Under the pieces are notes generated by a model, which was given only the letters and a program-made list of their open reading frames with translations, was not told where the DNA came from and did not search any database. A program made the position numbers and the translations under genes. Of a stretch of 64,000 bases of DNA, positions 1 to 64,000 are shown piece after piece. The stretch comes from Microthyrium microscopicum (lineage: Eukaryota; Ascomycota; Dothideomycetes; Microthyriales; Microthyriaceae), in contig MU004232.1 in NCBI GenBank assembly GCA_010405405.1, positions 577,481 to 641,480 on the forward strand, read 5' to 3'. The stretch's first letter is position 1, and every line of letters begins with the position of its first letter.

Positions 1-583
1 TTAGTATAGTCTTTTATTAAGATTACTATAATACTAGCAATATTATACTAAGGAATAAGATTTAAATCTTCTTCTTCTTTTAATACGTTAAAATCTTCTT
101 TATATAATATAGAGAATTAGTTTTTTTCTTACTATATTAAAGTTATAAATATATAGAAAGAAATAATATAGATATTAGAAGTATTCTTATCTTTCTTTTC
201 TATAACTACTTAGCCTTTATAATTAACTATAATAGAGTAGTATAAAGCTATATAGCCTTAGAAATAGTACTTAGAGTAGAAGCCTAATATTTACTAGCTT
301 TCTTAGAGTATAACTTTATACTTATTAACTTAAGGGTCTCTAAGGATAATATTATAGTTAGTAATTTTTATAATAAAGTATAAGACTTATTTAAGATAAA
401 TACTAATATATAAGGTAATAAATACTATATAAGTTATAGTAGTAATAATATAACTATTAGCTATCTTAGCTTAATATAGTCTTAATATTTTAATAGATTT
501 AAGACTATAAAGTTAGAGGTAATAAGAGTTAATAATACTAAATATACTACTACCTATATTAATAAAGATTTTTACTTTAGTAT

Positions 584-795
584 TATAAGGATCCTAGAGA
601 TACGGGAGCCGTAGTAGATTAAGATAGTATATTGAATGCAAAGCTAGGGAAGAGAGATCTAGAGCTACGGAAGCAAGCTGAAGTAGTAGATAGGATCCGC
701 GCACGGACCACCCGCACGTGACTATGACGTCACCGTGCAGGGGTAGCCCCTCCAGGGCAAGACCGCTGTCAAGCCTATGAAGAGGAATCATCACA
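584..795. repeat. Left LTR of the miniature element (212 bp)
   Basis: This is a direct repeat of 4074-4285 of identical length, about 96% identical by eye. It contains the palindromic motif TGACGTCA near 727-733, a CRE-like site that is also present in the other copy. Confidence 0.85.
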
Positions 796-1018
796 CGAGC
801 CCCCCTTTAAAATCAGTGCTCCTAAACTGAAACCTGCTCCTGCTTGCAAGAAGATCCTTTGAAAATTGACTGTGGAGTGGAAAACCTGCGGGAACCATGA
901 AGACAGGTAAAAAACCACTCTTTTGTTGTTATTGTGAAGCCATCGAGACGTACCGTGGATTGCCGTGTTTTGCCGGAGATCTTCCGCTTGGACCAAAAAT
1001 TGAATTTTGGGAATCTGC

Positions 1019-3692: not shown

Positions 3693-4073
3693 GAATCTGC
3701 TAACGTTCCCATCCCTTCTACTCCCATTATTTCGGTAGGATCCTGCCAACTACTAGTTCTTCTCGTCTCCTAAGGGACCACCCAAAAATCCTCTTAGGGA
3801 CCGTTTGTAGCGTCAGTACTCTAAGGAATAAACGTATATTAGGGAGTTTGGAATGTAGAGGAGTCGTTTTTGAATATTGGTGGGGCATGCGTCGACGCAG
3901 AGGCTATTTGGTAGTCCGAGCGTCCGCGGACACGTCATTGAATTTACGCGTTGAATTTCCGCGCTTTTTGGAATAGCTGCGCGCTCGCTTCGCGCGCTGA
4001 AGAGCCTATTCAAACCGATAGCTAGTTCCCGCGGGGTAAGCGCGGGAGTTGAAGTTTGAAGAGCTTTGCATTA

Positions 4074-4285
4074 TGTGAGGATCCTAGAGATACGGGAGCC
4101 GTAGTAGATTAAGATAGTATATTGAATGCAAAGCTAGAGAAGAGAGATCTAGAGCTACGGAAGCGAGCTGAAGTAGTAGATAGGATCCGCGCACGGACCA
4201 CCCGCACGTGACTATGACGTCACCGTGCAGGGGTAGCCCCTCCAGGGCAAGACTGCTGTCAAGCCTGTAAAGAGGAATTATTACA
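4074..4285. repeat. Right LTR of the miniature element (212 bp)
   Basis: This is a direct repeat of 584-795. It begins TGTGAGGATCC and is followed at once by AGTAT, which matches the five bases just before the left LTR. The sequence just inside (about 3900-4073) has normal base composition and no reading frame. Confidence 0.85.
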
Positions 4286-7172
4286 AGTATAGAAGCTATC
4301 TAAGAGAAAGATACTTCTTATAGTACTCTACTATTATTTTACTTTTAGAATAGTATTAGTTTCTAGTAATTAATTAATTAGTAAATAGGTAGTAAACACG
4401 CAAACTACTATTATACTATAATAAGGTTCTTCCTTAGATTTAGATTTACTTAAGTAAGCTTAAATAGCTTCTATCTAGTATTTCTTTTATTTATTTTATA
4501 CCTTATTAGAGTTTAGCTTATCTACGTATTAATATAGAGAAGCTACGCATTTCCTTAATATTAGCTATAAGTTAAAGGTATATTATTATTATCTTTTATA
4601 CTTAGAGTATAGTATAACTAAGAAGTATAAATTAAAGCTAATTTAGCTTAGATATTATTATTAAATATAGTATCTTTACCTTAGTAGAATATAGTTTTAG
4701 CTTATAGATTATAGCCTTTATTACTATATTATAGGTAGCGTTTTTCTTTCTTAAGGTATAAGAATAGAGTATTACTATAATATAGAATTATCTTTTAAGT
4801 ATTTTTATTTTTATTTTTATTTTTATTCTTATCCTTATTATTAAACTTCTTATAATTTAAGAAGTAATTAACTTATTATAGTTTCGTTATAAATTTAGCG
4901 TTTATAGTTACTTTACTAGTATAGAAATAGCTTATTAGCTCTTTAGTAATTATATTATATATATAAGTTAGTTTATTAGTATTAGATAAGTAAGCTTTAT
5001 TAGTTTTACTAGTAAACTTAACTAGGTAAGAGCTTAAGTTATTAGTCTTCTTTATCTTATTAAATAGATTCTATAACTAAAGGAGAGTAGCTTTACGCTT
5101 ATTAGTACTTTTAAAATAGTAATTAAGGTCGTTCTAAAACTCTACTATAGAAGTATATAGGTTAGGTATATTATATTAAGCGTAATTAATAATAAAGCTA
5201 ATAGTAAGGTCTTTATATTTACTATAAACCTAAATAGCTTAAGATAGCTTAGTAAGAAAAGTATATACTTTATAGTAAAGGTAGTCTTTAACTTTAAGCT
5301 TCTATTAAGGATATAAGTCTTACTTTTTACTATTATAAGTACTAAGATTTTACTACTCTTATATAGAGTTAGTCTTAGAGCTTACTAATACTTTTAAGAT
5401 AAGTATAGCACTCTTAGTATTAAGATAAAGATTTAAGTATAAATAGCTCTAAGAGGATAGTATAGTGTCTTCTTTATTAAAGTCTATTTAGTATACTAGT
5501 TTTTTAGTCTTATAGGTTAAGTTACTTAGTTAATCTTTAAGATCTTAGATTTTTCCTTTTAGAAGTATAATCTAATTACGCTTTTTAGTATAGAAGTTAT
5601 ATAGATACTTAATAATATCTATAACTCTAATTACTTTATAGTAATTAATTATATTTTATTCCTTAAGGTATAGTTATTACTTAATTAACTAATAAGCTTT
5701 ACTTATAATTTAAGTAGCTTTACTTTCTAAAGTATAGATATATTACTATAGAAGAGAATTTTGTATTATAGCGTTATTATATATAGTAGAGAGGTCTAAT
5801 ATACTATCTTTATTATATTAGTATTCTTTTAATAAATTTACTAAGTTAATATATATAGCTTTAAAAGTAATGCTTATAGCTTAGGTAGATTTAATGTAGT
5901 TATAGAATTATTTAAACTAAGTATTAGTATAAAAGCTAATACTATAAATAAAGCTTATTCTATCCTTAATAACTTCTAGCTCTATTTTGCCTTAAATATA
6001 GTAGAGTATAATAAGGTTAATAAGTATAGATCTAATCTTTCCTTCTAGGTTTAGAGACTCTTATACTTAGAATACTACTTAGTCTTATATAAGGTACGTA
6101 AAGATAATATAGGTTTAATCTTATAGAGTAATACTAATATATATTATAAAGTACTATAGATATTAACCTTTAAGAGTAATCTAATTAATTTAATCTTAGT
6201 CTAGTAGATATAGTTATACGTTATAATATACTACTTTCTTACCTTTATTCTTTTTAAATATATTCTAAGCGTTACCTTTAGGTTATTTAATAATATTTAA
6301 TAGGATTAGGGCTTAGGCTAGAGAAGGATAGTAAAAGTAGATAAAGGAATAGCGCTAGCTATAGCTATAAAGTAGTATAGGTATATTATTATTACTATTA
6401 AGGTTATTAATATTTAACTACTATATAGTAGACTAAGTCTCTTAGAGCTATTAAATTTTAGATTATAAGCACGTCTCTAACTAAAGACTACTAATTAGTT
6501 TGCTAGATATAGTCTATAAAATTAATATTATATAATAATAAGTAAGTAACACTAGTACGTAAGGTTTAGCTAAGGTCTTCTAAATAATTTACTTTATTAG
6601 AGTAGTAAGTTTAGAATAGAGTTTAAGCGTTTTATTTAAAAGTAATTCTTAATTTAGGTTTATTACTATTAATTTAAGTATATAGAAAGAGATATAGGTA
6701 TAGGACGAAGCTATTACTATAAGTCTAGTAGATATAGAGTAGAAGATGCTAAAATCTTCTTCTTAATTACTAATTAGTCTATACTAGTAGAGTTATTTAG
6801 TCCTTATACGTAAATCTTTACGCTAGTAGGGTTATTATTCTTATAGGTCTAAAGACCTATTTTTATATAGAATAGTAGATTTTAGACGCACAAATTATTA
6901 AATCTTATAATATTAGTAAGCACGTTTTAAAAAAAGGTTTTAAATATTAGAGTAATCTTAGTTTTATATTAGAGAGCTATAGATATAAGGAGTATAATCT
7001 AGATATAGATATAATTTAAGAAAACTAAGATAGAAAATCTAGAAGAGGGATTAGGGCTAATAGGAGATAAGCTCTATACTAGCTAAACCTTAGGCGCTAA
7101 GCCCTTAGTATTACGTAATAAGGATACTAGAGATCTTATAAAGAGATCTTAATAGAGAGGATCCGTAACACT
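4286..7172 (-). mobile_element. Degraded outer retroelement relic, family unassigned
   Basis: Removing the miniature LTR element (584-4285) and one copy of AGTAT joins 1-583 to this segment, so both are parts of one older repeat that extends beyond the left edge. On the minus strand a sequence starting TGTTACGGATCC at 7172 resembles a fungal LTR start, which would put the right-hand boundary there with the element on the minus strand. It is broken throughout by RIP and no protein can be read. Calling it an LTR element is tentative. Confidence 0.35.
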
Positions 7173-10100
7173 CTAAACCTAGTCTATTATAAGAGATAAA
7201 TATAACTAAAGGATTCTTATAGAATACTAATATATTTAGGCTAATTATAATGCTTAGTAGTTTTATATACCTTAGTACTAGCTTATAATATTTAAGATTA
7301 GAATAAAGATAGTAAAAGGCTACTTCTAGATAAAAGATTATTCTATATATAAATATAGGTAAGGTACCTATAAAAAAGAAAAGAAAAATTAACCTTTTAT
7401 TATCTTTTTTATAACTTTTCTTAATTATATTTATTTAAAGAAACTATTTATAAGAAATTACTTTTATTTATTATTAATTTAAGTAAACTATTATAAGTAA
7501 TAATAATTAAAATTAAACTTTTAGATCTTCTTAGTAATTCCTAAGACTATTACTAAGGTTATTTAAATATAATAAGCTATTTCTAAATCTTTCTAGTAAT
7601 TCCTAGAACTATTACTAAAAGCTTTCTTATAAAATATTTAATAGTAAGAAATAGGAAACCTAAATAACCTAAATTTCTAAGCTAACCTACTATTTTCTAG
7701 TTTTAAAATAATATAAGCCTAATACTACTTTTCTCTATTCCTTAGAAGATAATTAACTTTAAGAATCTAGTCCTATTTTTTTCTTTATATAAGTAAGCTA
7801 ATATACTTTTTCTTTATTAGAACTAAACGTAGTTAGTAAAGCTCCTAAATAACTTAAAAATAATATAGATAATAAGCTACTAGTAGAGCTATAAATAAAA
7901 GTAATAAGTAGTCTAATAACTACTTATATTAATTATATAGTACCTATACTTACTTTCTTTATTATAAATAAGTAATCTTATTTACTATTTAAGGTATAAT
8001 TTATATAAGCCTTATTAAATATAAAATTGCTCTTTATATCTTAAAAGACTATATAATTATACTAAGTAATAACTTCTTTATCTAAGAGCTTAAGTATATA
8101 GTAGTATTTATATTTATTATAATACTAGTTAAGTTAGTAACTCTAAATATAAGCTATAGCTACTTATAACTTATTACTATTAGATAATAAATTAGTTATT
8201 ACTATAGTAGCTAGCTTAGTCTAAGTAAGACTATACTTAACGTAATACTTAAGTAATACTAGGATTTCTTAAGAGATTTTAACTCTTTAATTCTAAAGAT
8301 TCTATAGAACTTAGATAAGCTTATTCTAAGTCTTCTTCTTATACGTTTATAGCTAGTAGTTTAAATAGATTAATTAACTACTTATTATAGTATAAGCTAT
8401 ATTATTAGGTAAATACTTATAAGTCTACTTATTAAGCTTCTTTAAGAGAGCTAAATAATAATCTAAACTAGGCTTTATCTTAATTTAAGGCTTAGATAAG
8501 GTCTTATATATATTATCTTACTTCTTTATAAGCTAATATAATAGTATCTTTATCTTTTCCTTACCTAAAGACTTAATATATTTTAGTTTATTCTTAGAAA
8601 TATTTAAGAAGCTAGTCTTACTAACTATATACTTATATATTTATAGAATACTATAAGTTTACTCTAGCTTAGGTATTATATAGTAATAATAGCCCTAACT
8701 ATATTCTTAGTTAATAACTTAGTATAAGGTTATTTTAAAGTATACTAAGTTATTTTAAATATACTAAAGTATATTTTTTACTACTTAAACTTAGGAATAT
8801 ATTATATTTTACTTTATATATACCTATATAGAATTAAGTAGTATAGTATTTAAGAAGTTATAGTCTAGACTAAAAGTATTAATAATATAAGTATTAAATA
8901 TTATAAATAGCTTAATCTTATTTTAATTTAGAAGACTTATTTCTTAAAGCTATTAAAGTATTACCTATATTAAAATATCTTCCTTAATAGAACTTATTTT
9001 TTATTTAGGTATTTCTTAAGTAGCTTATTTATAAGCTAACTTCTACTAATAAAAGAACTTACTCTTTAAGACTAAAGGATATTATCTAAACATAGGTAAT
9101 TATTTATAAGATTATTTTATTTTAGAATTAATATTATAGTAGCTTATAAAAGCTTACTAGTAAGCCTCCTTAGAAGAAGGATTTAAATAGCTAATACTCT
9201 ATTAATAACTAGATCTAACTAGAGAAAGTAAAAAGTAGTTATTATTATTCTTTATACTTAGGAATCTTAATATACTACTTTATTAGCTATAAGCTTTAGC
9301 TAGAAAAGATAAATATATAAATATATTTATAAATAATTATAGACGTTCTTTAAAATAAGGTTAAGTAACTAGACTTAGAAATTAAGTAGTAAAACTTAGA
9401 GCTTACTATAAAAATTTAGCTTAATTACGCTAAGCCTAAGAAACTTAAGAGTAAGTACTATACTTTCTAGATATTTTTAAAAATAATATAGTTAGCTTAG
9501 TATAAGGAGCTATCTTAAAAAGCTTTTATAATTAAGAGCTTAAGAAGAATTAAGGATTAAAGAAGAGGAATATATAGAGCTACTTATACTTAATAATATT
9601 AAAAGTATAAGAGAGAATCTACTTCTACTAGCTTAAAGTATTATAGAAGTATAATAAAAAAGAAGAAAAGAAGATAATAAATTATAAAGCTTTATAGATA
9701 TAGGATTAAGCTCTTATCTTATATTTATTTAGACTAGTAATTACTACCTAATTCTTTATTACTACCTATATATTACTTCTTATAAACTTTATTCTTTAAG
9801 GCCTTAGAGCATAGGTTATATATATCTCTTACTAGATTAAGTAGCCTTAATATATCTATATAAACTTCTTATAATTCCTTAATTTACTACTATTAATAGC
9901 CTCTATATAAATAAATCTTCTTAAAAAGATTAAGAACTATAAATACTTAAGTACTATTTATAATAGTTTAACTTAGATCTTAAGAAAAATCTTAGAAAGA
10001 TAATTCCTTAAAGATTACCTTATAGTATAACTAAAGTAATAGCTCTAGACCCTAAGTAAAAATTCTTTATTAATTATTATAATATTCTTTTTATTTTACT

Positions 10101-11993: not shown

Positions 11994-14900
11994 ATGGCTG
12001 CCAACAAGCAATTTGCAGGCTTCGATCCAACTGATGACGACAATGACATAGCCGGCGAGATCACCGCGCCTCAAATGATCAGCTCTGAGCAGCCGAACAA
12101 GGCAGCGAAACCAGTTAGACGCATTGCGCCTATGACAATTACCTCAATCTCAAGCTCCGAAAAGCAGGAAATTCCTGGAAAAACAGCAAAAGAGCCGACT
12201 CCTATCGAATCAGCCGGGAACCAGAGCACTTTGAATCTACCAGCTGCTCAGGTGTCTACCATCGCATCTGATGGTAAATCAGGTCTTGCGAAAGAGCATA
12301 CTGCGAAAGAGCCTGCCGCGTCAGAAACTGGCAAAGAACCGGCAAAACAGACTCCAAAGGAGCCTCCAGAGCCGCCGGGAGAGCCGCCGGGAAAGCCGCC
12401 CGCCAAGGAAATAGCACTTCAACCCGCAGAAGAGCCAGCTCAAGAACCCGCAAAGGAACAGCCAGTGGTGGATGAAGTTGTACCATCCATTGAAAATGCC
12501 TTGGGACAATCAGCAAATCAAAATTCTGCTGATATTGAGATGTCCGATGCACCTTCTTCCAGCACAAACATCTTGAATAATCAACCAGATGTTGATATGA
12601 CGGATGCCCCTCCAGCTCCGGCAGTCAATTTCGAGGGTCGCGAGATCATTGATTTGGACGATGCTGATGACATTGCAATTGGTGGTGATGATAATGACTT
12701 CAGAATTTCCGATGCCTGGGGCATTATGAAAGATTTGCAAGGCCAACAAGAGAAAGAAACACAAAATGACTTCCAATTGGCACTGGAAAAAATCCAGGAG
12801 GAGGCTATGCGTGAAGCAAATCAACGAATTCTGGATCCTTTGGTGCGCTCAAAGCGTTCCAAACCTTCTAAGCGAGGTAAGATCCCCCCCAAATACCCAT
12901 ATTTCTTGACGATATTGGACAAGATCAAAAACGTCGCGGCTCCCATCGCATTCGATGGCTACCATCGCACTCGATGGTGGTTCAGCTTGTTGCGGCAGGT
13001 CATCTTGGAACAATAAATTATCTTTTCAAAGCGTGTCCACAAGCAATTTCACTCTCCAGGCGTGCTAACTAACAGATTCAAGTCCGAGATGACGACGATG
13101 ACGACGACGACGACGACCATTTGTACCACTCTTTCGAATTCGACGCCGCCGGCGATGAAGATGCTGTGATCTTCAAACGCGAAATGCACAAATTTCTTCA
13201 GAAAGAAAAGCAAGGCAAGCTAGGGTTCCTTGAGGATATTGAGTGGTCTCGCATCAAGAATCAAGAGCGTACTCGTCGCGAGAAGGTCAAGAATGATCGA
13301 ATACGTGAAGCCTACGAGCAAGAAGAAGAGCTGGCACGCGAGGAAGATCGTAGCCCCAATTTTGACCACATCAAGAAGAACTTCAGTCTGTACCACAATG
13401 ACGATGCTTCAGGCTTGTTCGTCCCTTTGAGCTCAAATCTCGGCAATGTTCGTGGCTCAATGCAGGATCTTCAAATGTCTGATAACGAACAGACATCTCC
13501 ATCTCCATCGAGCAATAGAACAGGCAAAGCTCCGAAAGCTCGGAAGAGTCCTACCGAGAAACGTGTGTCAAAGGTTAAGAAGAGCACGATCAAAGCCCTG
13601 GTAAGAGTTCCCTGCAACAATCCAAAAAAATCCAATGAGTCTAAATATACCGCGGCTCCCGTCGAATTCGATGGATCCACAGTGCATTTTACTGCTCATA
13701 TATAGTAATCTTAAACTAACAAATTCCAGGCTGGGACAATGCAGGAACTCGACGAACGAGACAAGCGCAAGACGGGAAAACGCGCAAAGACAGGTGGTAC
13801 CCGCAAAGGAAAGTCCAAAGCAAGTGGCAAAAAAGCTGCTACGGAAGATGATGATGAAGACGAGTCGGACTTTGCAGTGCTAGGCACTGCAAAAAGCCGC
13901 AAGAAGAAACCGCAAACTGCAAATATCGGAAGTTTGTTTAAACCAACAGACGTATTCAACCGGAGCGAGCATCTCGCAGTGGGCGAGACTGATGAAGGAC
14001 GACTCGGCATGCAGAAAGGCAGAAAAGACGTTGCCTTGAAAAACCTTATCGCTGGTATTCCTCTTGATCGTCAAGAAACAGCTAAAGTTGATAGTCGCCA
14101 CCTTCTGCAAGCCAGTAGCAAGTTTGACGGAACCGGTGCATGTCGTTCAGATGATACTGGTTGGAAATTGAAGGGAATGGTCTCTACCCTGAGACACTTC
14201 CAGATGCTAGGCGCTAGCTGGTGTCGTGAGCGAGGTAAGGTACATTCTTGCTGAATTTCAGTGCTTTTCGCTGACAGATATCAAGAGCGAGACAACGATG
14301 TGAAAGGGGGCCTCATCGCAGACGATATGGGGATGGGCAAAACAATAACAATGCTGGCTAACGTGGTCAATGGCCTACCTCCAAAAGCTTTTCACGGCGT
14401 TAGAGCTACGCTCATCATCTGTCCCAGCTCCCTCGTCGATCAGTGGATGTCTGAGGTGCGCAAACACTGCGATTTGAATCATTTGGGACAGGTATTGCGC
14501 TATAACAACCCAAAGCCAGGCTTGTCAATGTCCCTCGACGACATAGGCATGCTTTCCTCTGCCAGCATAGTGATAAGCACTCATAACGCTGTCGTTCGCT
14601 CCTGTCCCAAGATCACCTTCCCGAAGCACCTTGTAACTCAATTGGACAAGGAGAAATGGTTGTTTGACAATAGGGAGAAGTTTCGTGGTCAGCTCCATCG
14701 TATAGAGTGGTGAGTTTGACCCAAATAACGCTTTGGTGATCATACAGTAACGACTTTAGGCATCGTGTAGTCATTGATGAGGCTCATGTTCTCAAGAATC
14801 ATTTGTCACTGACTTCTCTTGCAATGCGAGAACTAATGGCTAAACACAAATGGTAAGCTAACTCAGTCTCATATCACATTCTTGACCACATTCGAAATAC

Positions 14901-17552
14901 TCCAAACCGAGTGGCGCTTACCAGCACATGTGACGGCTTATATGGGGATGTGTTTCCATAAGGTGCTATGGTTTCCGCCAGATGTGACGGCTTCCTTATC
15001 ATCTCTTCTGGTTTGCCTTGAAGGTTTCATTTGATCTTTTTATCGAACCTTGCTGACGTATGTGTACAGGTGTATTACAGGAACGCCGATTCACAATTCG
15101 CCCAAGGTAAGTTTTGATCGTGTGATGGCTCCCATAGCATTCTATGGCTACCATAGAACGCGGTCCGGGTTCGTGCTGAGAAGACTATTTGGTCTTTTCA
15201 GTGCAAATTGGCTTCGGTTTTACTCTTCCGTTATTTGACACTAACAAATCTCAGGAACTGTATCCATACTTCAGGTTCCTAGGAGTCAAGCATACTGGGG
15301 ATTTCCGAGTGTAAGTTCCTTCTTGCACGCATCTTTTGATGACACCATATCATGTTGTAGCTCCCATAGCACTCTATGTGTGCCATAAAGAGCGAGAGTA
15401 TTTCCAGCTGATAGACCAAATGATCTTTGGGCACTTGGGCTTAGTGGACATATTTCGCTTCTCAGACTAACAGAATTAGGTTCTGTCATAACTATGACAC
15501 CAAAAGCACTACCGGTCAGAACCGCCTACTCGCGCAGTTGAACAAGATCATGCTTCGACGAACTTACGCAGACTCCATGTTGGGGGAGGCAAGAAGACCT
15601 CATTACCATGATGCGCATGATTCTAACGTTAGAACAGGCTCTAGTCAAACTACCTCGCACAAGCAAGACGGAGACTTGGGTTACTTTAAACCGTAAGGAT
15701 CCCTCCGAGTAGATTGACTTGAGGTTTTTAGACGACGTTGAAATTATTACTTTCGTGGCTTTCCTCACACTTGATGGTTCCCATGACATGTTGTGGGATC
15801 CATCAGGAGCGCAAATCATCAAAACCGCCCGAGTAGACTTCTTTTGCCAATTGAAACTGACAAATTTCTAGCCGTCGAGCGTCAAGTATACACCGTTGTT
15901 CGAAACCGAATCATTGAACAGGCAAGCAATTTTGGAAAGATGTGTCTGCTTCACGTTACTTATCTAACCTTATTTTTATACAGATCAATAGCATGGTTCG
16001 GACCAATGCTAATCCTGCAGGTGGATTATCCCATTGTATTTTCACAATGATTTTACGTCTTCGCCAGATTACCAGTCACATCTTGCTTATCGAAGAGCTC
16101 ATGAAGGATCTGCTCCTGCCTGCAGACATTGCTAGTCTCGAAAAAATCAGCCAGACCTACTATAACACCGTGGCAGATCAGAAAACTATCGACACCATTC
16201 TTGCTTTGCGCCATGCTCTGAAATCCCACGAGAAGTGGCAGAAATCGACCTGTGAGGATGAAGATGACTTCCAGAACGAGCTTGCTGCTAAAGAATCCGG
16301 TCTGCGAACCGAAACCATTGGCGGCGGCTATGGTCTTGCTTACAACTTCAGCGAACTTCTCAGCAATCTGAAAAAGAACTCGCGCTGGGAAGAATTTCAC
16401 GACACGTACAAATGTATTGGCTGTCAAAAAGAAAAACCGGACCAAGCGAGAATAACAACGTGTGGGCATATGTATTGCGAGCCATGTGCTTTTGGTCTAC
16501 TCGTGAAACATGCTGGTCAAGGTGGAGTCATTGCACGCTGCGATGAATGCGGTGTCCAATTTGACCGTCTGGAGACCTGTGAGGCACACCCTTCCCTTAT
16601 GATATCATATCTAACTGAAAAAATAGTTAACACCAAAACACTTGAAGTCGGCTCCGTTGATACTACGCCCTTCTTGAACGACGATGGCTCCGAGCCAGAG
16701 ACAGAAGCTAGCAGTTCGCAAGGCAAGAAGCCCAAGAAGGTAAGATTTTCCATTGCCCTGATTCCATGAGGTTAAAACGAAATACTGCATTGTTCCAGAG
16801 CATTTTATGGCTACCATAGCTCTATATGACCAGAAATGCTCATATGTGAAAATTATACTGATGCTTCCCAGGCTCGACGAAAGAAAGACCGGAAGGCCGT
16901 ACCAAACTATTTAGCCGAGGAGCCTCTCCCATCAAGCAAGACTTTAGCTGTCAAGTGCCAGATCTTGAATTGGATTGAAGAAAATCCTGCCACGAAAGTC
17001 ATAATCTTCGTCCAATTCCTTGGCATGATCGAGATCCTCAAGCAGCTCGCTGCGGCCGAAGGCTGGCCAACTCTCCAATACCACGGCTCTATGACCATGG
17101 AGGAACGCACCAAGGTGATTGATGTGTTCGACAGCCACCCCGGCCCATGTATCTTCATTGCCTCCCTCAAATGTGGAGGAGTGGGTCTGAATCTCACCAT
17201 GGCATCCAAGGTCATCATGCTAGAACCCTGGTGGAATTGGGCGATCGAACAACAAGCCTTTGGTCGTATCTTCCGGATTGGGCAGAAACAGCAAACAGCA
17301 CTGCTTCGTGTGTTTGCGAAGGACACCATTGACGAGCGCATGTATCAGATGCAGGAGCAGAAGAGTGCCAAGATTGATGCGGTTATGAAGAACCAAGGGA
17401 AGAACATGGCGCCAAGCGAGCTGTTGAAGCTGTTTGGTAATATCCAGTCTGGTGATGATGGCGAATACTTCGTCATGTGTGACGAGACTGCACCCGCGAA
17501 GGCACCAATGTTCGAAGACGGTGCATATCTGCAGTGGGATACGGAGAAGTAG
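11994..17552 (+). CDS. SNF2-family helicase/ATPase with an inserted RING finger (Rad5/Rad16-like)
   Basis: Proposed exons: 11994-12876, 13083-13600, 13730-14234, 14286-14709, 14760-14852, 15070-15106, 15255-15310, 15480-15588, 15638-15692, 15872-15921, 15984-16739 and 16872-17552. All phases agree and give 1388 residues. The first about 600 residues are low complexity (Pro/Glu/Lys-rich, then an Asp run). Then come Walker A DDMGMGKT (about 650), the DEAH box VVIDEAH, TGTPIHN (about 810), IMLRRT, a C3HC4-type RING (CIGC...CGHMYCEPC...CDEC, about 1053-1100) and the second helicase lobe with KCGGVGLNL and GRIFRIGQ. A RING between the lobes is typical of Rad5/Rad16/HLTF-type chromatin remodellers with ubiquitin-ligase activity; no HIRAN domain is visible. 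The ATG at 11994 has a good context (G at -3 and +4); upstream codons lack an ATG. Two introns are GC-AG, and six carry related hairpin sequences. Confidence 0.9.
12944..12977 (+). repeat. Introner-like hairpin in helicase intron 1 (two 19-bp-spaced units)
   Basis: Intron 12877-13082 contains CCATCGCATTCGATGG followed, exactly 19 bp further on, by CCATCGCACTCGATGG. Each unit is nearly its own reverse complement and can fold. The preceding GCGGCTC is shared with intron 2 (13658-13674), and a GGCTC or AGCTC precedes the copies in introns 6 and 7. The unit matches the 19-bp minisatellite at 43528-43831. Confidence 0.8.
13658..13674 (+). repeat. Introner-like core in helicase intron 2
   Basis: Within intron 13601-13729, CCCGTCGAATTCGATGG follows GCGGCT, the same left context as in intron 1. 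It is an imperfect palindrome and a single unit. Confidence 0.7.
15131..15160 (+). repeat. Introner-like core in helicase intron 6
   Basis: Within intron 15107-15254, CCCATAGCATTCTATGG follows GGCT and leads into CTACCATAGAACG. It has the same layout as intron 1, with TA in place of CG inside both palindrome arms. The paired substitution keeps the stem, which suggests that pairing matters. Confidence 0.75.
15363..15395 (+). repeat. Introner-like core in helicase intron 7
   Basis: Within intron 15311-15479, CCCATAGCACTCTATG follows AGCT and is followed by TGTGCCATA. It is a diverged copy of the intron 6 core. Confidence 0.65.
15589..15637 (+). other. GC-AG intron in the helicase gene
   Basis: The donor is GAG|GCAAGA and the acceptor GAACAG, with a CTAAC branch site 13-17 nt upstream. 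No GT donor lies in range, and the frame on both sides (ending SMLGE, resuming ALVKLP) needs a 49-nt removal. Confidence 0.75.
15765..15795 (+). repeat. Introner-like core in helicase intron 9
   Basis: Within intron 15693-15871, TCACACTTGATGG followed by TTCCCATGACATG matches minisatellite units of the form CACACTTGATGG at 43580-43640. It is shorter and more diverged than the copies in introns 1 and 6. Confidence 0.5.
15922..15983 (+). other. Second GC-AG intron in the helicase gene
   Basis: The donor is CAG|GCAAGC and the acceptor ATACAG, with CTAAC at about 15964. Removing 62 nt joins NRIIEQ to INSMVRTN, the expected SNF2 sequence; no GT donor gives that frame. Confidence 0.75.
16799..16822 (+). 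repeat. Introner-like core in helicase intron 11
   Basis: Within intron 16740-16871, GAGCATTTTATGG leads into CTACCATAGCTC. The TATGGCTACCATA centre is the same as in intron 6 and forms a perfect short inverted repeat. Confidence 0.6.
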
Positions 17553-17980
17553 GTGCTACCTGTGGGCCAAGTTGAAGGATGAAGAGTTTTGAAACTGGCG
17601 GTGTTGCGGGAGGAGTGTGGTGAAGAAACTCGACAAAAAAAAATTAGTGTACGGTGTTGGCAAACCTTAAGCTTGCGATTGTAGTTGAATCAATGTAAGG
17701 TTGGGTTATTACTATGATCTTCGAAAATCAGTTTTGTGTATATCCAGGTCCTCGAAGTTCTGCTGGTGAGCGAATGCATGAGCATTATCCCCATCGCGTC
17801 TACCATAAGAGCTGCCATCGGGCATCGCACGCGATGGAATATGTTCCTCTTGAGCTGAGATCACGAACATCTTGCTGAATGTCAAAAGTAGCGTAGCATG
17901 CTCATTCGAATCGCTAAATCCTACAAACACTCATACGACTACAACATGAAACGCCGAACAATCAAACCATCCATCATACT
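17553..17980. other. Intergenic tail-to-tail gap, no gene seen
   Basis: These 428 bp separate the 3' ends of the convergent helicase and GH125 genes. They presumably hold both 3' untranslated regions and poly(A) sites. An A-rich run lies at 17635-17645. Nothing else is recognisable. Confidence 0.6.
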
Positions 17981-40811: not shown

Positions 40812-40969
40812 TGAGACTTATGCGGAATGAAAAGACATGTCGAATAGAATAATGTTATAGATACTCAATGTACACCTGATTAGAATCTACTTCAACTCAC
40901 TTGCATACGACTTGTACATCATGATTGGTACAGTGTACTTGATATTTTCCCGTTATCAGTTAGTTCTAT

Positions 40970-42495
40970 CTGCGCTTTCTATAATTGCGCATTTTGGCTG
41001 CAGCGCATTTTTGGTGTGTAGCGCATTTATATAGAAGTTATCTTGGTGGGGTAGCGCATTTATATAGAGCGCATTTATATAGAGCGCATTTATATAGAGC
41101 GCATTTATATAGAGCGCATTTATATAGAGCACATTTATATAGAGCGCATTTTTGGTGAGCAGCGCATTTTGGTAAGCAGCGCTACACACCATAAACGCGC
41201 TGCTCACCAAAAATGCGCTCTATATAAATGCGCTCTATATAAATGCGCTCTACCAAATTGCGCTGGGCTGCACGCAAATTGCGCTGCCATAGCTACCCCA
41301 CCAAGATGGCTTCTATACAAATGCGCTACACTATAATGCGCTCTACACCTAAATTGCGCTGCACACCATAAATGCGCTGCCCACCAAAATGCGCTATACC
41401 AAAATGCGCTGGGCTGCACGCAAAATGCGCTGCGGTAGCTTCGCGAAGCTACCCCACCAAGAAGGCTTCTCTATAAATGCGCTGCAACACCAAAAGTGCG
41501 CTCTATATAAATGCGCTACCCCACTAGGATAGCTTCTATATAAATGCGCTGCAACCCCAAAATGCGCTCACCTAAATTGCGCTGGCTGCACGCAAAATGC
41601 GCTACTCTATGAATGCGCTCTATATAATTGCGCTCTATATAAATGCGCTACCCGCCAAGATGACTTCTATATAAATGCGCTGCAACACCAAAAACGCGCT
41701 GCACCCAAATTGCGCTGCACACCATAAACGCGCTGCCCACCAAAATGCGCTGCCCACCAAAATGCGCTGCCCACCAAAATGCGCTGCCCACCAAAATGCG
41801 CTGCCCACCAAAACTGCGCTCTCTATAAATGCGCTGCCATAGCTTCACTAAGCTACCCCACCAAGAAGGCTTCTATATAAATGCGCTGCAAGTTCAACAC
41901 CAAATTGCGCTGGGCTGTACGCAAAATGCGCTACACTATAAATGCGCTCCACACCAAAATGCGTTGAGCTGCACGCAAATTGCGCTGTACACCATAAATG
42001 CGCTCACCACAAATGCGCTCACCATATTTGCGCTCTACCAAAATGCGCTGAGCTGCACGCAAATTGCGCTGTACACCAAAAATGCGCTGCCTCACTAAAC
42101 ATGCGCTCACCAAAACTGCGCTCACCAGAAATGCGTTCACCATATTTGCGCTGCCCCACCAAAAATGCGCTTCACTCAGCACCAAGTCTGCGCTCACCAT
42201 ATTTGCGCTGCCTCACTAAATTGCGCTCTAACAAACTGCGCTCTACCAAATTGCGCTATACACTGAGTCTACGCTCACCAAATTTGCGCTGCCCCACCAA
42301 ATTGCGCTGCACCAAATTGCGCTCTGCACCAAAAATGCGCTCACCAAATTGCGCTCCCCATAAATGCGCTCCCCATAAATGCGCTCCCCATAAATGCGCT
42401 CCCCATAAATGCGCTCCCCAGTAATGCGCTCCCTATAAATACGCTCTGACAAGAGTGGGCTCTCTATAAATACGCTCTGACAAGAGTGGGCTCTC
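40970..42495. repeat. Satellite array built on AAATGCGCT, with an orientation switch
   Basis: Roughly 70-80 copies (by eye) of a WWWTGCGCT core are separated by spacers of about 4-14 bp such as CTATATA, CACCAA, CACCATA and TGCACGCA. From 40970 to about 41165 the core reads AGCGCATTT; from about 41196 onward it reads AAATGCGCT. Longer spacers containing GCTACCCCACCAAGA and GGCTTCTATA recur several times (for example about 41295, 41450, 41520, 41655 and 41855), giving a higher-order structure. A repeat in a multiple of three produces spurious frames on both strands. It starts about 160 bp after the stop of the Zn2Cys6 gene. Confidence 0.9.
41110..41252. repeat. Large inverted repeat at the satellite's orientation switch
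   Basis: The 56-bp arms 41110-41165 and 41197-41252 are reverse complements with a single mismatch seen, around a 31-bp loop. The arms include AGCGCATTTTTGGTGAGC and two or three TATATAGAGCGC modules. Such an arm length would allow cruciform or hairpin extrusion. Confidence 0.85.
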
Positions 42496-43135
42496 TATCT
42501 GGGACTCATGTTTGTATATCATGAGATTCTCTGATGTAGCGTGGCATATCTTTTTGTTCATCACCTACTCCTTCCCCTGATTCTCCATATGCTGCATTTA
42601 TAGGACCAACACGAATGATCCGGAAGCCACTTCACGAATCCCTCCGACACTCTGCCGTAAATTTCATCGAATCAGAAGACTGTAATCCACCGCCAGTGAG
42701 GTACATGAACCAATAGGATCATATTCGGGCTCCGGGTCATGCTCAAAAGTCAAAAAAAGCTTTTTTGGCCTTGACTCATCTATCCATATCATGGAAGTAA
42801 TGATAGAGTGGCATGTGTAAGAAGGACTTCTCGAAATTTTTCGAATATTTTGATGTTTTGATGTGGAAAAAAGCACTGGCAATGCTACATCTGCAGCGGT
42901 GAGCCTTATGTTATGTTATGGGACGAGGAGAGCCGATGGCGAAGCGTCTAGCAGCTCATTGGCTACGGGAAGGTGCTTTGGTGGGTTTGGATGGTGTAAA
43001 AAGTCCTTGGTAGGAGCTACTTTGGGGCTAGAGAGCTTGAGGTGATTCTGGGTTACGTTCTAGAATGGTTTACTTTGTCACTATGAAAATATTGGACTGT
43101 GAACATTGCATTGTTGGTCGTGGCTTTTCTGTGAA
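42496..43135. other. Unique sequence between satellite blocks
   Basis: About 640 bp of ordinary sequence separates the main satellite from its small outlying block. Only short frames are present and nothing is recognised. Confidence 0.4.
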
Positions 43136-43140
43136 CGTGT

Positions 43141-43265
43141 TAAGGAAGCGCATTTATAGGAAGCGCATTTATCATGAACGCATTTTTGGTGAGCGCATTT
43201 TTGGTGAGCGCATTTTTGGTGAGCGCATTTTTGGTGAGGCAGCGCATATTTGGAGAGCGCACTTT
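43141..43265. repeat. Outlying satellite block, AGCGCATTT orientation
   Basis: About eight copies of GCGCATTT separated by TTGGTGA, ATAGGAA or similar lie here, in the opposite orientation to the bulk of the array at 41196-42495. Spacer TTGGTGA is the complement of TCACCAA, used in the main array. Confidence 0.85.
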
Positions 43266-43527
43266 TGCTGTAGCGAAATCTGATTCAGAGTACTTATCAA
43301 TACTTATTGTACCCAGCATTGAACGGACCGACCTCGTCTGAACTACTTATCGGCTGCGTGCCCCTTGGAGTCATTGCATCAATGGACAACATAATTCAAG
43401 CATCTCTGCTCATGAATTCCAGCCTTATCCACACATGGCGATGTAGCAATGATATGGTCACCGGATTCATGGGGATTTGGCAATCGCAATAATCTGGTCA
43501 GTAAAAAATCTGGACAGAATCACCCCC

Positions 43528-43831
43528 GACGGGAAACATCACACTTGATTCGCAATATCGCATTTGAATGGCAATGTCGCACTTGATGGGCGATATCACA
43601 CTTGATGGGCAATATCACACTTGATGGGCAATATCACACTTGATGGGCAATGACGCATTCGATGGGAAATATCGCATTCGATGGACAACATCACATTCGA
43701 TGGAAAATATCGCAGCCAATGGGTGATATCGGATTCGATGGGTACTATCGGATTCGCTAGGTACTATCACATTCGGTGGGCAATACCGCGTTCGATGGGC
43801 AATACCGCATTCGATGGGACATGTCGCACTT
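43528..43831. repeat. 19-bp minisatellite, 16 units
   Basis: Exactly 304 bp divides into sixteen 19-bp units of the form GATGGGCAATATCRCAYTY, with the palindrome-like core ATCGCATTCGATGG spanning unit boundaries. Units on the left are more alike (CACACTTGATGGG) than those on the right. Because 19 is not a multiple of three, the apparent minus-strand frame across it is not a gene. The same core, at the same 19-bp spacing, occurs in intron 1 of the helicase gene (12944-12977). Confidence 0.9.
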
Positions 43832-45786
43832 GGTATCATTTAGTCGGTTGTTGCCATGCCTATAAGTTACATTTGTCTTAACTAGAAGCCTTCAATACGC
43901 ATTGGGAACCTGTGTCCCCCTTTTCATCCATTATAAAGAAGTATTTATACGTAGTTGCTCTAGTATGGCATTAAACAACTAATATGAAATTTAGCTGCTG
44001 CCTGTAATACATTCTACATTTTGAATCTAGCACCGTGTAGAATTTTCCAGCGAAAGTTATGCATACCACTCACGAGCAGTCGTTGCAGTGTTTGGCTTAA
44101 AGCAGAACGACGTGGGTTGAGATTGGTCAAATGAAATTCAGAGTTAAGCTGATATACCTTAGAAGAACTCCTTCTGCTTTTCTCCTACTGTATTCATTCC
44201 TCATTTAAATAGTTATTTCAACTTTTGTCTATGGCTAAACGGAAAAGCTCATGCCTTTTTATGACATGCAAGCTGGTTGGGCAAATTGTAAAAGCCCACC
44301 TTGCGTTACATAGGCAGTAGAGGAGGGATTAAAAGCAGAATTAAACGATGTCCTATTTTGCTAGTGGGTTACTGCTCCCAATATGGAAGGAGCGACTCTA
44401 CTCTACTGTAGGTCCGGAAGGAGCGACTCTACTCTACTGTAGGTCCGGAAGGAGCGACCTACTATCAATGCAGGAGGAGCGACCCTGCCTTGAAGTTGTC
44501 AGGTGTTAGATCTTGCAGAATATGTTGAAGAATCAAAAACAATATCTTGCTATACCACCGCTACAGCCCACAAATTAAACTCAAGCATTTCGAACTTTCG
44601 TTGCAGCCCGGAGATACAATTTTACACCCATAATAAGTGATGATCGCAGACCCTCTCCCCTCTATGTCAACCTTTACTCCTGAGGAATCCACCAATCATA
44701 GCCAAAATAGCCCACATCTTAGCCATCGAAAAATTGGTATTGTCGATTTAGCGTCCCAGATATTAAGTATTTATTCTGAGAAAAGACAACAGGGGGTGTG
44801 TCTCAGCGACCATCACTTTTTTATTATGGGTTTATCCTTTCAAACTGCTTCTTATTATTAATCATTCTGCTCGTTTTTGAGATACCTTCATGGTTATTAA
44901 AGTCTATCACTTTCTGCGACGTAAAATGTATAGCAGCAAGACCAGTAGAGTAACTGCCTCTCCTTATGCAGTCGAGATCCAGATCTCTGAGCCTCTTAAT
45001 CAAGCACTGTACGTGCGTGCCTAAAAGTCAGCTCGGCGGTTCATAGGTTGACGTGTCAGTTACAGCTTCGGGTGTACCTCTAGAGAAAAGATATGTACTG
45101 ATATCCTTTTTTCGTCTTGTTTACAACTTGAAGACACCACCGTGTGTTTATTCTCGATGGTTTGCTATTATCTTCTCCTTAGCGCGTCATTCTTCGACTT
45201 TTGGAGCTAGGTATAACTACCCTATTGAAGAGGGAGCATGTAATGAAGACGAAGTCGTAGTAAGTAAGATGATGGAATAAGGAAGCTATCTAGCTTCCGA
45301 TCCCTGAAGGGGATGGAATATCTATCTGACCCTAGCCTACCTCTTTAGGAATAGGTAAGAGCTATGATCTAACGTCACGTATCACCTATGAATGTCGAAT
45401 ATACCGCTTTTCTTCTAGATCTAAGCAAAGCTCCTCAAAGCATAAGTTCGAGCTGAGAAGATCGCATTCGTAGAACGGCAAGGGGTATTCATCCACGACC
45501 ATAAGACAAACTATGGAGATGCTAACGGTTCAAGACCGTCATAGACTAGCATGAGACTATAATACTTCAAAATTGGATACGGTGTGCTATAGTTACACCT
45601 TCCAACAATTTAAGTTATTGGTTGGACGATCACATCTCAAGACGTGTATTTCCGGAAGCCTCATCGGCAATATCAGGAATAAGCTAGCAGTCAGCAACAA
45701 AACTAGTGAAAACGTGATACTTAAAGCACATTCGAACTGGATACTAAGTATCCCACTCGAACTTTCACATTTCAGTCTTTCCCAGA
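43832..45786. other. Intergenic region upstream of the monooxygenase
   Basis: About 1.95 kb with no supported gene. It holds a 31-bp tandem repeat at 44385-44484 and presumably the promoter of the gene at 45787. Several short frames have no coding character. Confidence 0.5.
44385..44484. repeat. Short 31-bp tandem repeat
   Basis: Two identical 31-bp units (44385-44415, 44416-44446), each starting GGAAGGAGCGACTCTACTCT, are followed by a truncated unit and a further GGAGGAGCGACC. Confidence 0.85.
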
Positions 45787-47107
45787 ATGCTCACGACACC
45801 AAAAATTGCAATAATCGGTGCCGGCCCATCAGGCCTAACGCTAGCTCGCATTCTCTACTCCAAAGGCCTCCAAACAATCACCGTATTCGAAGGCGAAGCA
45901 TCCCGACATGTCCGTTCCCAAGGAGGATCCCTCGACCTCCATCCTACTTCCGGTCAACTCGCGCTCAAAGAAGGCGGTATTTACGATCAATTTTTGAAGC
46001 ACGCGCGGGTTGAGGGCCAGGATTTGAAGCTTGCGGATAGGGATGGAAAAGTTTGGTTGAACGTGGCCGATAGGGATACTGGCAAGCCGGAGATTGATAG
46101 AGAAAAACTGAGAGATATTCTGCTGGACTCTTTGCCGAACGGTATAGTGCAATGGGGGAAGCGAGTAAAGAGCGTGGATGTTGAACTAGAAGATGAGAGA
46201 CCTCAGGGACTGGTGCGGTTCGAGGATGGATCGCAGGAGAGCGGGTATGATTTGATTGTTGGTGCCGATGGCGCATGGTCGAAAGTTCGGCCGCTTGTGA
46301 CGCATATTCCACCATTCTACTCTGGTGTTGCTGGCATTGATATCAGACTCGATGAAGCGGATACACGACATTCTGAGATATCGAAGATGGTGGGAAGAGG
46401 AAGTTACTTTGTGTTTGGTGAGGAGGAGAGACGAGTGCTACTGTGTCAGCGTAATGGTGATGGGAGTATTAGAATTTATGCAGTTGGGAGTGCACCAGAG
46501 AGCTGGGTTAAGGGGCCTGGATATGACTTTGACGATGTTGAAGCTGTGCAGAAGGCGTTCTTAAATGACTATGGGAGTTGGGCTCCTGAGCATAAGAGAA
46601 TATTTGAGGATTTGAACTTCAAGGAAGGAGACTCAATCACACCGAGGGCGCTTTATATGCTTCCCGTGGGACTGAAATGGCCGACGAGAGTTGGAGTAAC
46701 GCTTTTGGGCGATGCGGCGCACTTGATGACACCATTTGCTGGACAAGGAGTTAATCAGGCGATGCAGGATGGGATGGAGTTGGCGTTATGTATACTTGCA
46801 AGCCTGGATGATTTAACAACGGCAGTGAGGAAGTACGAGGAGGATATGTTTCCACGAGCTCAACAGTGGACTCAACGGACGTGGGATAGTCTACAGGCAC
46901 GGTAAGTACTCCTACTCGTGAAGACTGTTGAGAAAAGCATGAGATCTACTCGAATATTAGAACCACATATTTGAGCCTTGTACTGACATTCAGAGCAGAT
47001 TTGCACCAGGAGGCATCGCTGGATTCTGTACCATGTTTAAAGATAGAGTCAAGAAGGAAGAGAAAGCTGTGGAATTCAAGGAGAATGATTATATTGCAGA
47101 GACATGA
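45787..47107 (+). CDS. FAD-dependent monooxygenase (PHBH-fold, TetX-like)
   Basis: Exons 45787-46901 and 46999-47107, joined over a 97-nt intron (donor CG|GTAAGT, acceptor AGCAG), give 407 residues. The N-terminus KIAIIGAGPSGLTLARIL is the Rossmann GxGxxG for FAD. YDLIVGADGAWSKVR is the DG motif, and GDAAHLMTPFAGQGVNQAMQ is the second FAD-contacting GD block. The combination matches class A flavoprotein hydroxylases, including TetX-like proteins common in fungi and bacteria. Substrate is unknown; there are no biosynthetic partners beside it. Soluble, with no signal peptide or membrane anchor seen. The short second exon encodes a hydrophobic FAPGGIAGF patch and a charged tail ending in NDYIAET. 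Confidence 0.9.
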
Positions 47108-59500: not shown

Positions 59501-60697
59501 CATGTGCTTCTTCCTCGTATGAGGCCGGGCAGCAGCTTTCGCATCGCCATTCAGGAGAGGGAATTACTTGTAGTCTTTGAAAAATCACAAAGATGTGTCA
59601 ATTTAGTTTTTTTGAGAAGGGCGGTCATTCGTGATATCGAATAATGAGAACTTCACTCCGATGGCAAACAGAATATTTGGTTGCTTACGTCGCAATCGAT
59701 CAACTAAATAAAAGTTTGTGCTTATAGTCTTCTTCCGGATCCTTTGTTTATGCCATTTGACATATCGAAGCAGTCAAAAGGTACAATATATGCTTTCTTT
59801 GGGTATATACTGACATCTCAAACCCCTAATACTTATCAAACCAAACCAACGTCTTTGCCGGGTATCACAGACTCGTATATACATTTGAGTTTGGCCCTTA
59901 GACCTGCTTGCTTGAAGCAGGCGGTGCTTTGTGAACAAGCCCATTACTCAAGTCTTACCCCCATTCGCTTGTTCTACAGCTTTTGTGGTAAATGGATCTG
60001 AGTTCCACTAAACATTGCATACAGTTGTGCAAGGTAGTAAAGATGTTGCTACTGCTTATGAAGAAGAATTAGGCCAGCTTCGTGGGTGGGATGCAATAAC
60101 GGGTGACAAAAAACCCGAGCTAGTGAAAGAGTTACAAAGAACCTTGTCTCTGTATGAGACAATGAACTGAGTAATTCTAATAGTTTTGAGCGTCACACGT
60201 CCAGACAGGCACAAGAAGATAATTTCTGATACCAATTGTAGCATATCTTTTAAACTATGTAGTATGGGGCATGGGAAGGGATATACATGAGCAATCAATT
60301 TTGAGAATTTCCTTGGTAAATTCCACCCTTCCATCCAGCACCCTTCATGATAAGCAAGTAACATCAACTTTCAGAGTATTTCCTTTGGACCTGTTCGCCT
60401 TTCCATGCAGCAAGTACCCTCATAATGAGCCAGCAAGCCAGCAAGCCAGCAAAAAGAGTTTTTCTTTGAAGCTTTTCCTCGAATGTTTTCCTTCTTAACA
60501 CAGCAAGCACCCTCATAGAGAACCAGTAAAAGTATGTGGGATTTCTCGAATCTTTGTAACTTCCAAAGCAGCAAGCAGACTCCTGACAAACAAGCAAGAA
60601 GTCCCGGGCGTTCCTTCAACAGAAGCATGTTAACACATCATGCGACTGTGAATTCAAAGAAACCAAGCAAACTAAGCTCCGATCTCCTTGAGAGCAC
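59501..60697. other. Intergenic region with small repeats
   Basis: About 1.2 kb with no supported gene. Near 60400-60530 the phrase CAGCAAGYACCCTCATA occurs twice about 100 bp apart. A CAGCAAGC run (AGCCAGCAAGCCAGCAAG) lies at about 60430-60450. Confidence 0.5.
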
Positions 60698-62932: not shown

Positions 62933-64000
62933 ATGATCAAGTCGTCAGCTGTCGCTAAGAAAAGCGCAGTCATTGCTGTGCTGAGCCTTATATATACCGC
63001 TATCTGTGAAGTCAAGATCAAGAGAATCCCGAATCAAGTTATCTGCTCGTCTAAAGTTATCTGGTCGACAGACAACTTTCAAGAGGGCCTGCTTGTTCAC
63101 CGAATTGAACATCTTTATTGCTTCCCTATGCTTCGACATTGCAGTCACTCCGCTGTTCAATTTGAACCATCCCAAGAAGCCATAGATGCTGGCTTTGACT
63201 GGCAAAGTGAATCAGAGCGGGCCAAGGCGGCTGGTACAATCAAAGCTGAGAAAGAATACGAAATTCGAGAAGGAAATCCTGAGCCAGGCACCAAATTGAA
63301 GTGGTCGAGGCAGTCTAAACTTCCAGATGAAGAACCCTATTTTCCAGCCCCGGTTCTGCTCACACGCAAGGAGGTTGAATCAAATCAGAACTGTCCCTAT
63401 CAGTCTCTGGAAAATTGGATAGCGTCGAGAAGTTCTTGGTATAGACACCCAGACAAAGAGAATGTGTACATTGCATGGATGGAGGCAAGTTATGCTAAAT
63501 GATCTTGGTTACGGTACTTACCTTTTTTTGATAAAGCTCGGTTGTCAACTAGCATTTATAAGGGATCTTACATATGGCAGAAAGCGCATCCGAGAATTGA
63601 TGTGCCATTGCATCGTTACTGCCCATTGTAACTGACAAATCGATAGGATCCTGAAGGGCCTGTCGCTTCTCTGGAATCATGGATCAAGCCCCAGTTTGAA
63701 TCCCAGGAACAGATTCACTCAAACAAGTTCGATAGCGATGACCTCTTTTTCTACCTTAAAGATTTCTACTATCCTCGTGGTTTCAAACTAATCGGAGGGA
63801 AACTTGGTCTCACGCTTCACTATCGCCATACAGTGGATGAATTACTGAACGACCGGGGATGTATTGGCATGACGTGGAAGGAGGCATTCTTCCCTATCAG
63901 ATACAGAGAGTGTCCAGATAGGTAAGTAGACGAAAACACCGACGCAACTGATGATAAAACATCTTGACATCGAAACCAGTTCCTCCAAATTGGCAAAGTC
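62933..64000 (+). CDS. Gene of unknown function, running off the right edge
   Basis: Proposed exons 62933-63484, 63647-63921 and 63981 onward; phases agree. The first intron uses a GC donor (GAG|GCAAGT, a perfect GC-AG consensus) and ends CGATAG. The second is GTAAGT...ACCAG. The N-terminus has a hydrophobic stretch (AVIAVLSLIYTAI) that may be a signal or anchor, though the true start is uncertain. The body shows two similar phrases, SLENWIASRSSWY and SLESWIKPQFESQ, suggesting an internal repeat, and DLFFYLKDFYYPRGFKLIGG. No known domain is recognised. At least 278 residues lie inside the window; the 3' end lies outside. Confidence 0.55.

Follow-up and report, generated by a model that had tools for sequence, protein, structure and literature searches.

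A decayed family of introner-like introns in a helicase gene of Microthyrium microscopicum and a probably related 19-bp minisatellite

The origin of new introns is an old open question. Among the described systems, the introner-like elements (ILEs) of Dothideomycetes fungi are the nearest known kind to the introns reported here, which belong to a predicted SNF2/Rad5-like helicase gene of Microthyrium microscopicum. The gene lies in a stretch of 64,000 nucleotides (GenBank assembly GCA_010405405.1, contig MU004232.1, positions 577,481 to 641,480 of the forward strand; the whole stretch is called the window in the following), which also harbors a 19-bp minisatellite. ILEs are soon indistinguishable from ordinary introns, and Collemare 2015 names four genes with two ILEs each (PMC4457414). 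The helicase introns are like them in being spliceosomal introns that are related in sequence and decay toward ordinary introns, but here a single gene holds at least six decayed copies, and another gene holds a probable one.

Four other systems show partial likeness. Introners in the sense of Gozashti 2022 form families of at least four similar introns per family and include ascomycete hosts (PMC9860276). Most of them look DNA-borne, with ascomycetes as an outlier, and the rule applied in that survey asks for similarity near both ends and filters out low-complexity families as well as introns of similar genes; in the helicase gene, by contrast, most intron pairs have no common 5' side. The symmetrical sister (stw)introns of Hypoxylaceae, inserted seamlessly and without target-site duplication, are likewise copied introns with inverted-repeat symmetry, but carry terminal inverted repeats of 45–55 nt around a central palindrome, whereas a short internal unit with a 6-bp hairpin stands in tandem here (PMC8469720). 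Reverse splicing had been argued for by two earlier groups, and the same paper finds this model unsatisfactory, the symmetry of the introns being left unused. The amphioxus mirages are a direct proposal of introns arising from minisatellite-like units (PMC3087553). Their tandem repeats span the exon-intron boundary, a feature not found in the present window, where the array lies between predicted genes approximately 30 kb away and the unit is placed inside the introns, 20 nt or more from the splice sites. Tandem-repeat introns are also known from fission yeast, with a 24-nt unit; the repeats there resemble the nearby exon and hold proto-splice sites (AGGC), in contrast to the distance of at least 20 nt between unit and splice sites in the helicase gene (PMC3629103). 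In recently gained fungal introns the share of repeat elements is 1.5 times that of older ones, although the repeats may be added later (PMC8476143). A literature search on introners, minisatellites, intron gain and tandem repeats, which did not cover most subscription papers, gave no title on a unit shared by an introner and a minisatellite.

The best reading of the results takes the helicase introns as a genuine introner-like family that has decayed and whose members cluster in a single gene. At least six of them are related and core-bearing, with the reading frame preserved. The spliced protein contains an SNF2 domain (PF00176, 185.5 bits, compared to 71.5 bits for the only scanned unspliced piece with a hit to this domain) and a helicase C domain (PF00271, 67.2 bits), and a 329-aa piece of it has RAD5 as the best among 45 matches listed from the PDB (E 2.9e-12). 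Seven introns are long (1, 2, 5, 6, 7, 9 and 11; 129–217 nt) and four are short (3, 4, 8 and 10; 49–62 nt). A simple gene finder, partly trained on the helicase model, agrees on the 11 introns, so that this agreement is not independent; it also over-predicts (54 of 65 introns fall in other predictions, many of them doubtful; the 17 of these with a length of up to 80 nt were itemized), and therefore no intron rate is claimed for other genes. The gene, the family members and the copies outside the helicase introns are the following, where "held-out match" denotes the part of an intron that was matched when it had been left out of the profile.

11994..17552, + strand: predicted SNF2/Rad5-like helicase gene, 1388 codons, 11 introns, frame kept across all 11
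12877..13082 (206 nt), + strand: intron 1, family member; core dimer at 12938–12977; held-out match spans the 5' splice site through the core
13601..13729 (129 nt), + strand: intron 2, family member; core at 13654–13674 with 2 mismatches; held-out match is the core only
14853..15069 (217 nt), + strand: intron 5, probable decayed member; partial alignment to intron 1
15107..15254 (148 nt), + strand: intron 6, family member; core dimer at 15127–15166 with CCATaG/CtATGG; held-out match is the core only
15311..15479 (169 nt), + strand: intron 7, family member; core at 15359–15398; held-out match from the core to near the 3' end
15693..15871 (179 nt), + strand: intron 9, decayed member; core at 15757–15796 with CACACTTGATGG; held-out match collinear, from the core to near the 3' end
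16740..16871 (132 nt), + strand: intron 11, decayed member; core at 16790–16829; held-out match is the core only
63485..63646 (162 nt), + strand: GC-AG intron in a second gene, probable member; family's 3' end, frame continues across
12254..12274, + strand: core copy in helicase exon 1, GTCTACCATCGCATCTGATGG, in frame; core profile E 0.013
17798..17837, + strand: possible decayed copy shortly downstream of the helicase gene; E 0.38 with the 40-nt core profile, not significant alone

The core GGCTCCCATcGCATTCgATGG is common to six of the seven long introns, intron 5 being the weaker case, while the four short introns gave zero core hits. With up to three mismatches, the 21-mer GGCTCCCATNGCATTCNATGG occurs five times in the window (0.03 expected), exclusively in helicase introns (twice in intron 1, and in introns 2, 6 and 7); introns 9 and 11 hold decayed forms of the core. 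A scan for the 21-mer gave no hit in viral contigs and a single one in prokaryote genomes (a Bacteroidales contig), which is about the level of chance (estimate approximately 2). When each intron was held out in turn from a six-intron nhmmer profile, six of six were recovered, with E values of 6.6e-10 (intron 1), 4.4e-7 (6), 8.8e-9 (7), 0.0049 (11), 0.023 (9) and 0.083 (2), as would be expected of introns related by descent in the way of fungal ILEs. Held-out intron 2 was outscored by the minisatellite array (E 0.031) in the same model. A leave-one-out test with a profile of five dimers agrees less sharply (ranks in the window 2, 2, 8, 13 and 8). In a BLAST comparison within a set of 12 introns, intron 1 matched intron 6 with E 4.3e-9, intron 6 matched intron 7 over 81 nt with E 8.0e-8 and intron 11 matched intron 6 with E 5.5e-6. 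By these comparisons the introns are a descent-related family, clearly above chance.

In the six clear members the core is located 20–64 nt from the 5' and 42–105 nt from the 3' splice site. The 3' ends share the pattern ACTRACARA-N3..6-AG, found six times in the window on both strands, namely in five long helicase introns (not in 5 and 11) and in the intron at 63485–63646. A stretch of 60 nt in intron 5 can be aligned to intron 1 (66.7% identity) at an equal offset from the 5' splice site. Upstream of its core a p value of 0.0025 was obtained with the core placed at a guessed site, for which a later alignment gave another offset; core-profile hits to this intron are weak (E 0.2–0.5), and one model gave a minus-strand hit (E 0.011). 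Inspection of intron 1 by eye alone revealed no internal donor suitable for a stwintron reading.

Two 19-nt units placed head to tail make up the core. Introns 1 and 6 show this dimer clearly and introns 7, 9 and 11 in decayed form, so that the 19-bp spacing is a property of the intron family. A clear unit can be folded as CCATCG-CATT-CGATGG. The rows for the structural comparison were chosen by us and comprise the copy in exon 1 and seven cores from introns, intron 5 being omitted. Across these eight rows, 93.8% of the stem cells are paired, and one of 500 shuffles reaches the observed pairing, covariation score or count of cells changed on both sides. The folding energy of the whole intron is ordinary in six of the seven long introns. 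In a set of 10 introns, which omits intron 8 and takes intron 3 with a wrong end, intron 6 is unusual (z −3.31) and the other nine range between −1.54 and 0.17.

Minisatellites consist of head-to-tail units of about 10–60 bp, and one such array is found downstream of the helicase gene:

43489..43847, + strand: 19-bp minisatellite with a consensus of approximately ATCGCATTCGATGGGCAAT; about 16 units at 43538–43832 plus decayed edges

Tandem Repeats Finder (TRF) reports 43538–43832 as a head-to-tail 19-bp array of 15.5 copies with 78% matches (score 191), and a repeat search for a spacing of 19 between 150-nt windows extends it, including the decayed edges, to approximately 43489–43847. The array looks intergenic, since the gene finder predicts no gene of at least 120 aa in 40852–45787.

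The link between array and introns was assessed from both sides. A 40-nt profile made from five intron dimers finds its best matches outside the introns in the array (score 23.7); 14 other array stretches reach at most 10.5, and none of 300 shuffled sequences equals the array score. When the 19 array columns were permuted together, by which periodicity and composition are kept, p values of 0.0018 (40-nt profile) and 0.0094 (21-nt profile) resulted from 5000 permutations. The dimer of intron 1 is identical to the array at 30 of 40 positions, which was equalled by none of 1000 permutations, and the permutation p values for single sequences are 0.001 (intron 1), 0.013 (intron 6), 0.030 (intron 9), 0.014 (intron 2) and 0.006 (exon 1 copy). 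All eight family models rank the array first among matches outside the helicase introns, apart from the intron at 63485–63646 in the one model trained on it; the E values are 0.018, 0.036, 0.34, 0.031, 0.039, 0.096, 0.033 and 0.0082. Conversely, a profile made from the array has its four best outside hits within the helicase gene or next to it: 12261 in exon 1 (E 0.005–0.023), 12945 in intron 1 (0.057), 17824 in the 3' flank (0.25–0.26) and 12964 in intron 1 (0.92). With 12 arrays used as queries, the 19-bp array alone found an outside match with E < 0.04; the next best query, an acidic coding repeat, has 0.045, and several of the other profiles hold 1–3 units each and hence have less power. 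Taken together, the intron-array link is moderately above chance, and a common descent of the two is likely, if unproven.

An earlier note on this DNA had reported that sixteen 19-bp units of the array share a core with intron 1, where two copies lie 19 bp apart. In essence this observation holds, but it goes too far on the array units: the 14-mer ATCGCATTCGATGG is exact in one of 16 units only (43671), and 14 of 16 contain it with up to three mismatches. In intron 1 the pair is present as described, the copy at 12945 being exact and that at 12964 having one mismatch. A second variant, CACACTTGATGG, said to be shared with intron 9, is indeed exact there (15766) and in three array units. Compared to the first, its two CpG sites are altered (one to CA, one to TG) and one T is replaced by C; because CpG sites can decay in parallel, it adds little evidence. 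The note further proposed one sequence family in introns and tandem array, with which the tests agree, although the introns are related beyond the 14-mer; since they share a 40-nt dimer core, in five of the seven long ones also the 3' end, and in some pairs flanks, the 19-nt unit would be one part of a copied intron.

The same note had suggested counting the unit by sequence class, which was done in the window with the 14-mer on both strands, so that near-palindromic sites may count twice. With up to two mismatches there are six hits in helicase introns (1,392 bp), one in helicase exons (4,167 bp), seven in the array (359 bp), one in other sequence (46,883 bp) and none in AT-rich DNA (11,199 bp). 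The corresponding numbers are 8, 2, 14, 9 and 0 with up to three and 12, 7, 18, 54 and 0 with up to four mismatches, the contrast weakening as chance hits enter. A link is thus favored over a random spread, but the enrichment in introns is confined to one gene. Seeding of introns by minisatellite DNA, also raised in the note, is possible.

These results can be combined in one explanation, which on balance we hold to be just probable, namely that the long helicase introns are decayed copies of one introner-like element and that the minisatellite stems from the same 19-bp unit. The copied unit would be the intron itself, with a GT donor, a variable 5' arm, the core (GGCTcCCATcGCATTCgAT)2GG and, in most copies, the 3' end ACTRACARATTNCAG. 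By analogy with known fungal cases, the excised intron RNA may be reverse-spliced at a new position in a transcript or in the corresponding DNA, then copied and recombined in at the same locus; at least six copies in one gene would suit a return of the intron to the transcript or locus from which it came. The intergenic minisatellite would be an independent outgrowth of the 19-bp unit via slippage or unequal exchange, and would since have lost the full hairpin. A family of introns in a single gene points to copying back into that gene, which surveys based on copies in dissimilar genes, such as that of PMC9860276, are not designed to detect. If the link to the minisatellite is true, it gives a concrete source for the internal sequence of an introner.

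A number of observations weigh against this explanation. The gene models were built from frame and splice signals, not from RNA. Introners are known from unrelated genes, whereas nearly all copies here are in one gene and the second gene has one probable copy. Over the whole intron, 12 of 21 pairs match with p < 0.03, but outside the core just three do so downstream and two upstream (approximately 0.6 expected by chance on each side); such core-limited similarity would also fit a short repeat inserted in older introns. Regarding the hairpin, measures that count pairs and pair types are ordinary in the eight core rows (160 and 140 of 500 shuffles as high, respectively), and introns 6, 7 and 11 all have A-U in place of C-G, perhaps inherited from a single change, in which case these introns would be a subfamily. 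In the 12 of 16 array units taken for the structural test, 76.4% of the stem cells are paired (211 of 500 shuffles as high), the outer C-G pair is absent in 10, and the covariation score is matched by 123 of 500 shuffles. The permutation p value of 0.0018 becomes about 0.03 once approximately 14 candidate arrays are allowed for. When the 21-nt profile of a single unit is used, the array does not reach significance in the window compared to shuffled sequences (best E 0.68), while the exon 1 copy does (E 0.013). The array resembles the dimer of intron 11 at the level of chance (p = 0.51) and that of intron 7 barely (p = 0.056), and the top outside match of the array profile is the exon at 12261 rather than an intron.

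Readings that overlap in part compete with this explanation, and the likelihoods attached to them need not add up to one. The strongest takes the introner-like family as real and the minisatellite as unrelated, the resemblance being due to chance and CpG decay. Neither the outer stem pair nor paired changes are retained in the array, its E values in the family models are only 0.008–0.34 (0.68 with the 21-nt profile), and the pair of array and intron had been picked from the entire window in the earlier note. The column permutation (p = 0.0018), the absence of an equally good outside match in any of 11 other arrays (next best E 0.045) and the period and register common to both over two units speak for a connection, and we regard independence of the two as a serious though rather unlikely case.

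Alternatively, the 19-nt unit, single or in tandem, might be a short palindromic mobile repeat that was inserted into an exon, an intergenic site, the 3' flank and already existing introns, without the introns being copied. The core copy in exon 1 (E 0.013) and the weak copy in the 3' flank would be accounted for in this way, as would the facts that most intron pairs are alike within the core only and that three of the six held-out matches are limited to it. Inserted repeats do not account for the 3' end common to five of the seven long introns, the likeness of introns 6 and 7 over 81 nt and of introns 1 and 5 over 60 nt, or the held-out matches of introns 7 and 9 from the core to near the 3' end; moreover, the core is present in long introns and in none of the short ones, which is what an element comprising the whole long intron would predict. 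This possibility is considered unlikely.

The introns may also have been repeated by duplication or gene conversion inside the helicase gene, with no mobile element. This would be in line with one gene holding all copies bar one probable, but that one, the predicted intron at 63485–63646, has the shared 3' end in another gene, even if its hits in the family models are weak; local duplication is judged distinctly unlikely. Equally doubtful is a scenario in which the 19-bp palindromic unit was the seed, its dimer becoming the heart of an introner that invaded one gene repeatedly and a longer array becoming the minisatellite; if it were true, introners could be born from, or feed, minisatellites, by a route that surveys filtering repeat-like families would miss. 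That the core is a conserved intronic RNA hairpin, kept by selection because it aids splicing of long introns, would fit stem pairs that are kept, some changed on both sides, in long introns only, yet it is highly improbable, as selection leaves the shared loop and GGCTC (5' of the stem) as well as the array and exon copies unexplained, and intron 6 alone folds unusually among the 10 introns folded whole.

Returning to the introner-like family, its standing under the rule of Gozashti 2022 can be stated from our own tests, which are not the BLAST rule of that survey. Similarity at both ends was not found, the 3' end being shared by five of the seven long introns and the upstream arm matching with p < 0.03 in two of 21 pairs. 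The size of at least four introns is reached, but one gene holds all of them save one probable copy. In view of the both-ends rule and the filters, the helicase family would probably not be accepted by it.

The probable member in the second gene is supported mainly at its 3' side. The intron at 63485–63646 is 90.5% identical to the end of intron 9 over 21 nt (BLAST E 6.0e-4 in the 12-intron set), and its local alignment p values are 0.004 (intron 9), 0.008 (7), 0.02 (2), 0.09 (1), 0.21 (6), 0.33 (11) and 0.57 (5). Four of the seven nhmmer models not trained on it match it weakly (E 0.6–4); it is unlisted in the other three. The copy in exon 1 sits in a low-complexity stretch of the protein (VSTIASDG). 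A further weak core match lies at 59656–59700, outside predicted genes (E 0.08–2.2 in seven of eight models), and is perhaps a decayed solo unit.

GC donors (GCAAG) are present in three predicted introns, 15589–15637 (intron 8), 15922–15983 (intron 10) and 63485–63646, and AAG acceptors are required for the frame of the gene model in introns 1 (13080–13082) and 3 (14283–14285), both following CTRACAGAT.

Other repeats lie near the minisatellite. Before it, at 40987–43267, dense tandem repeats of 15–18 bp and longer compound ones are built on GCGCATTT, which occurs in both orientations (AGCGCATTT and AAATGCGCT). An origin of the 19-bp array from these neighboring arrays was dropped, as none of the 20 best hits of the array profile falls there. 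On the other side, a 31-bp repeat is located at 44385–44463 (2.6 copies, 97%).

In the window, no tRNA and no Rfam match at gathering thresholds was found, and a fungal-specific transcription factor domain (PF04082) is encoded. At 1–10000, an AT-rich block (21–31% GC in 2-kb steps) stands beside DNA of 42–53% GC; it resembles the AT-rich isochores of fungi, and repeat-induced mutation is possible there.
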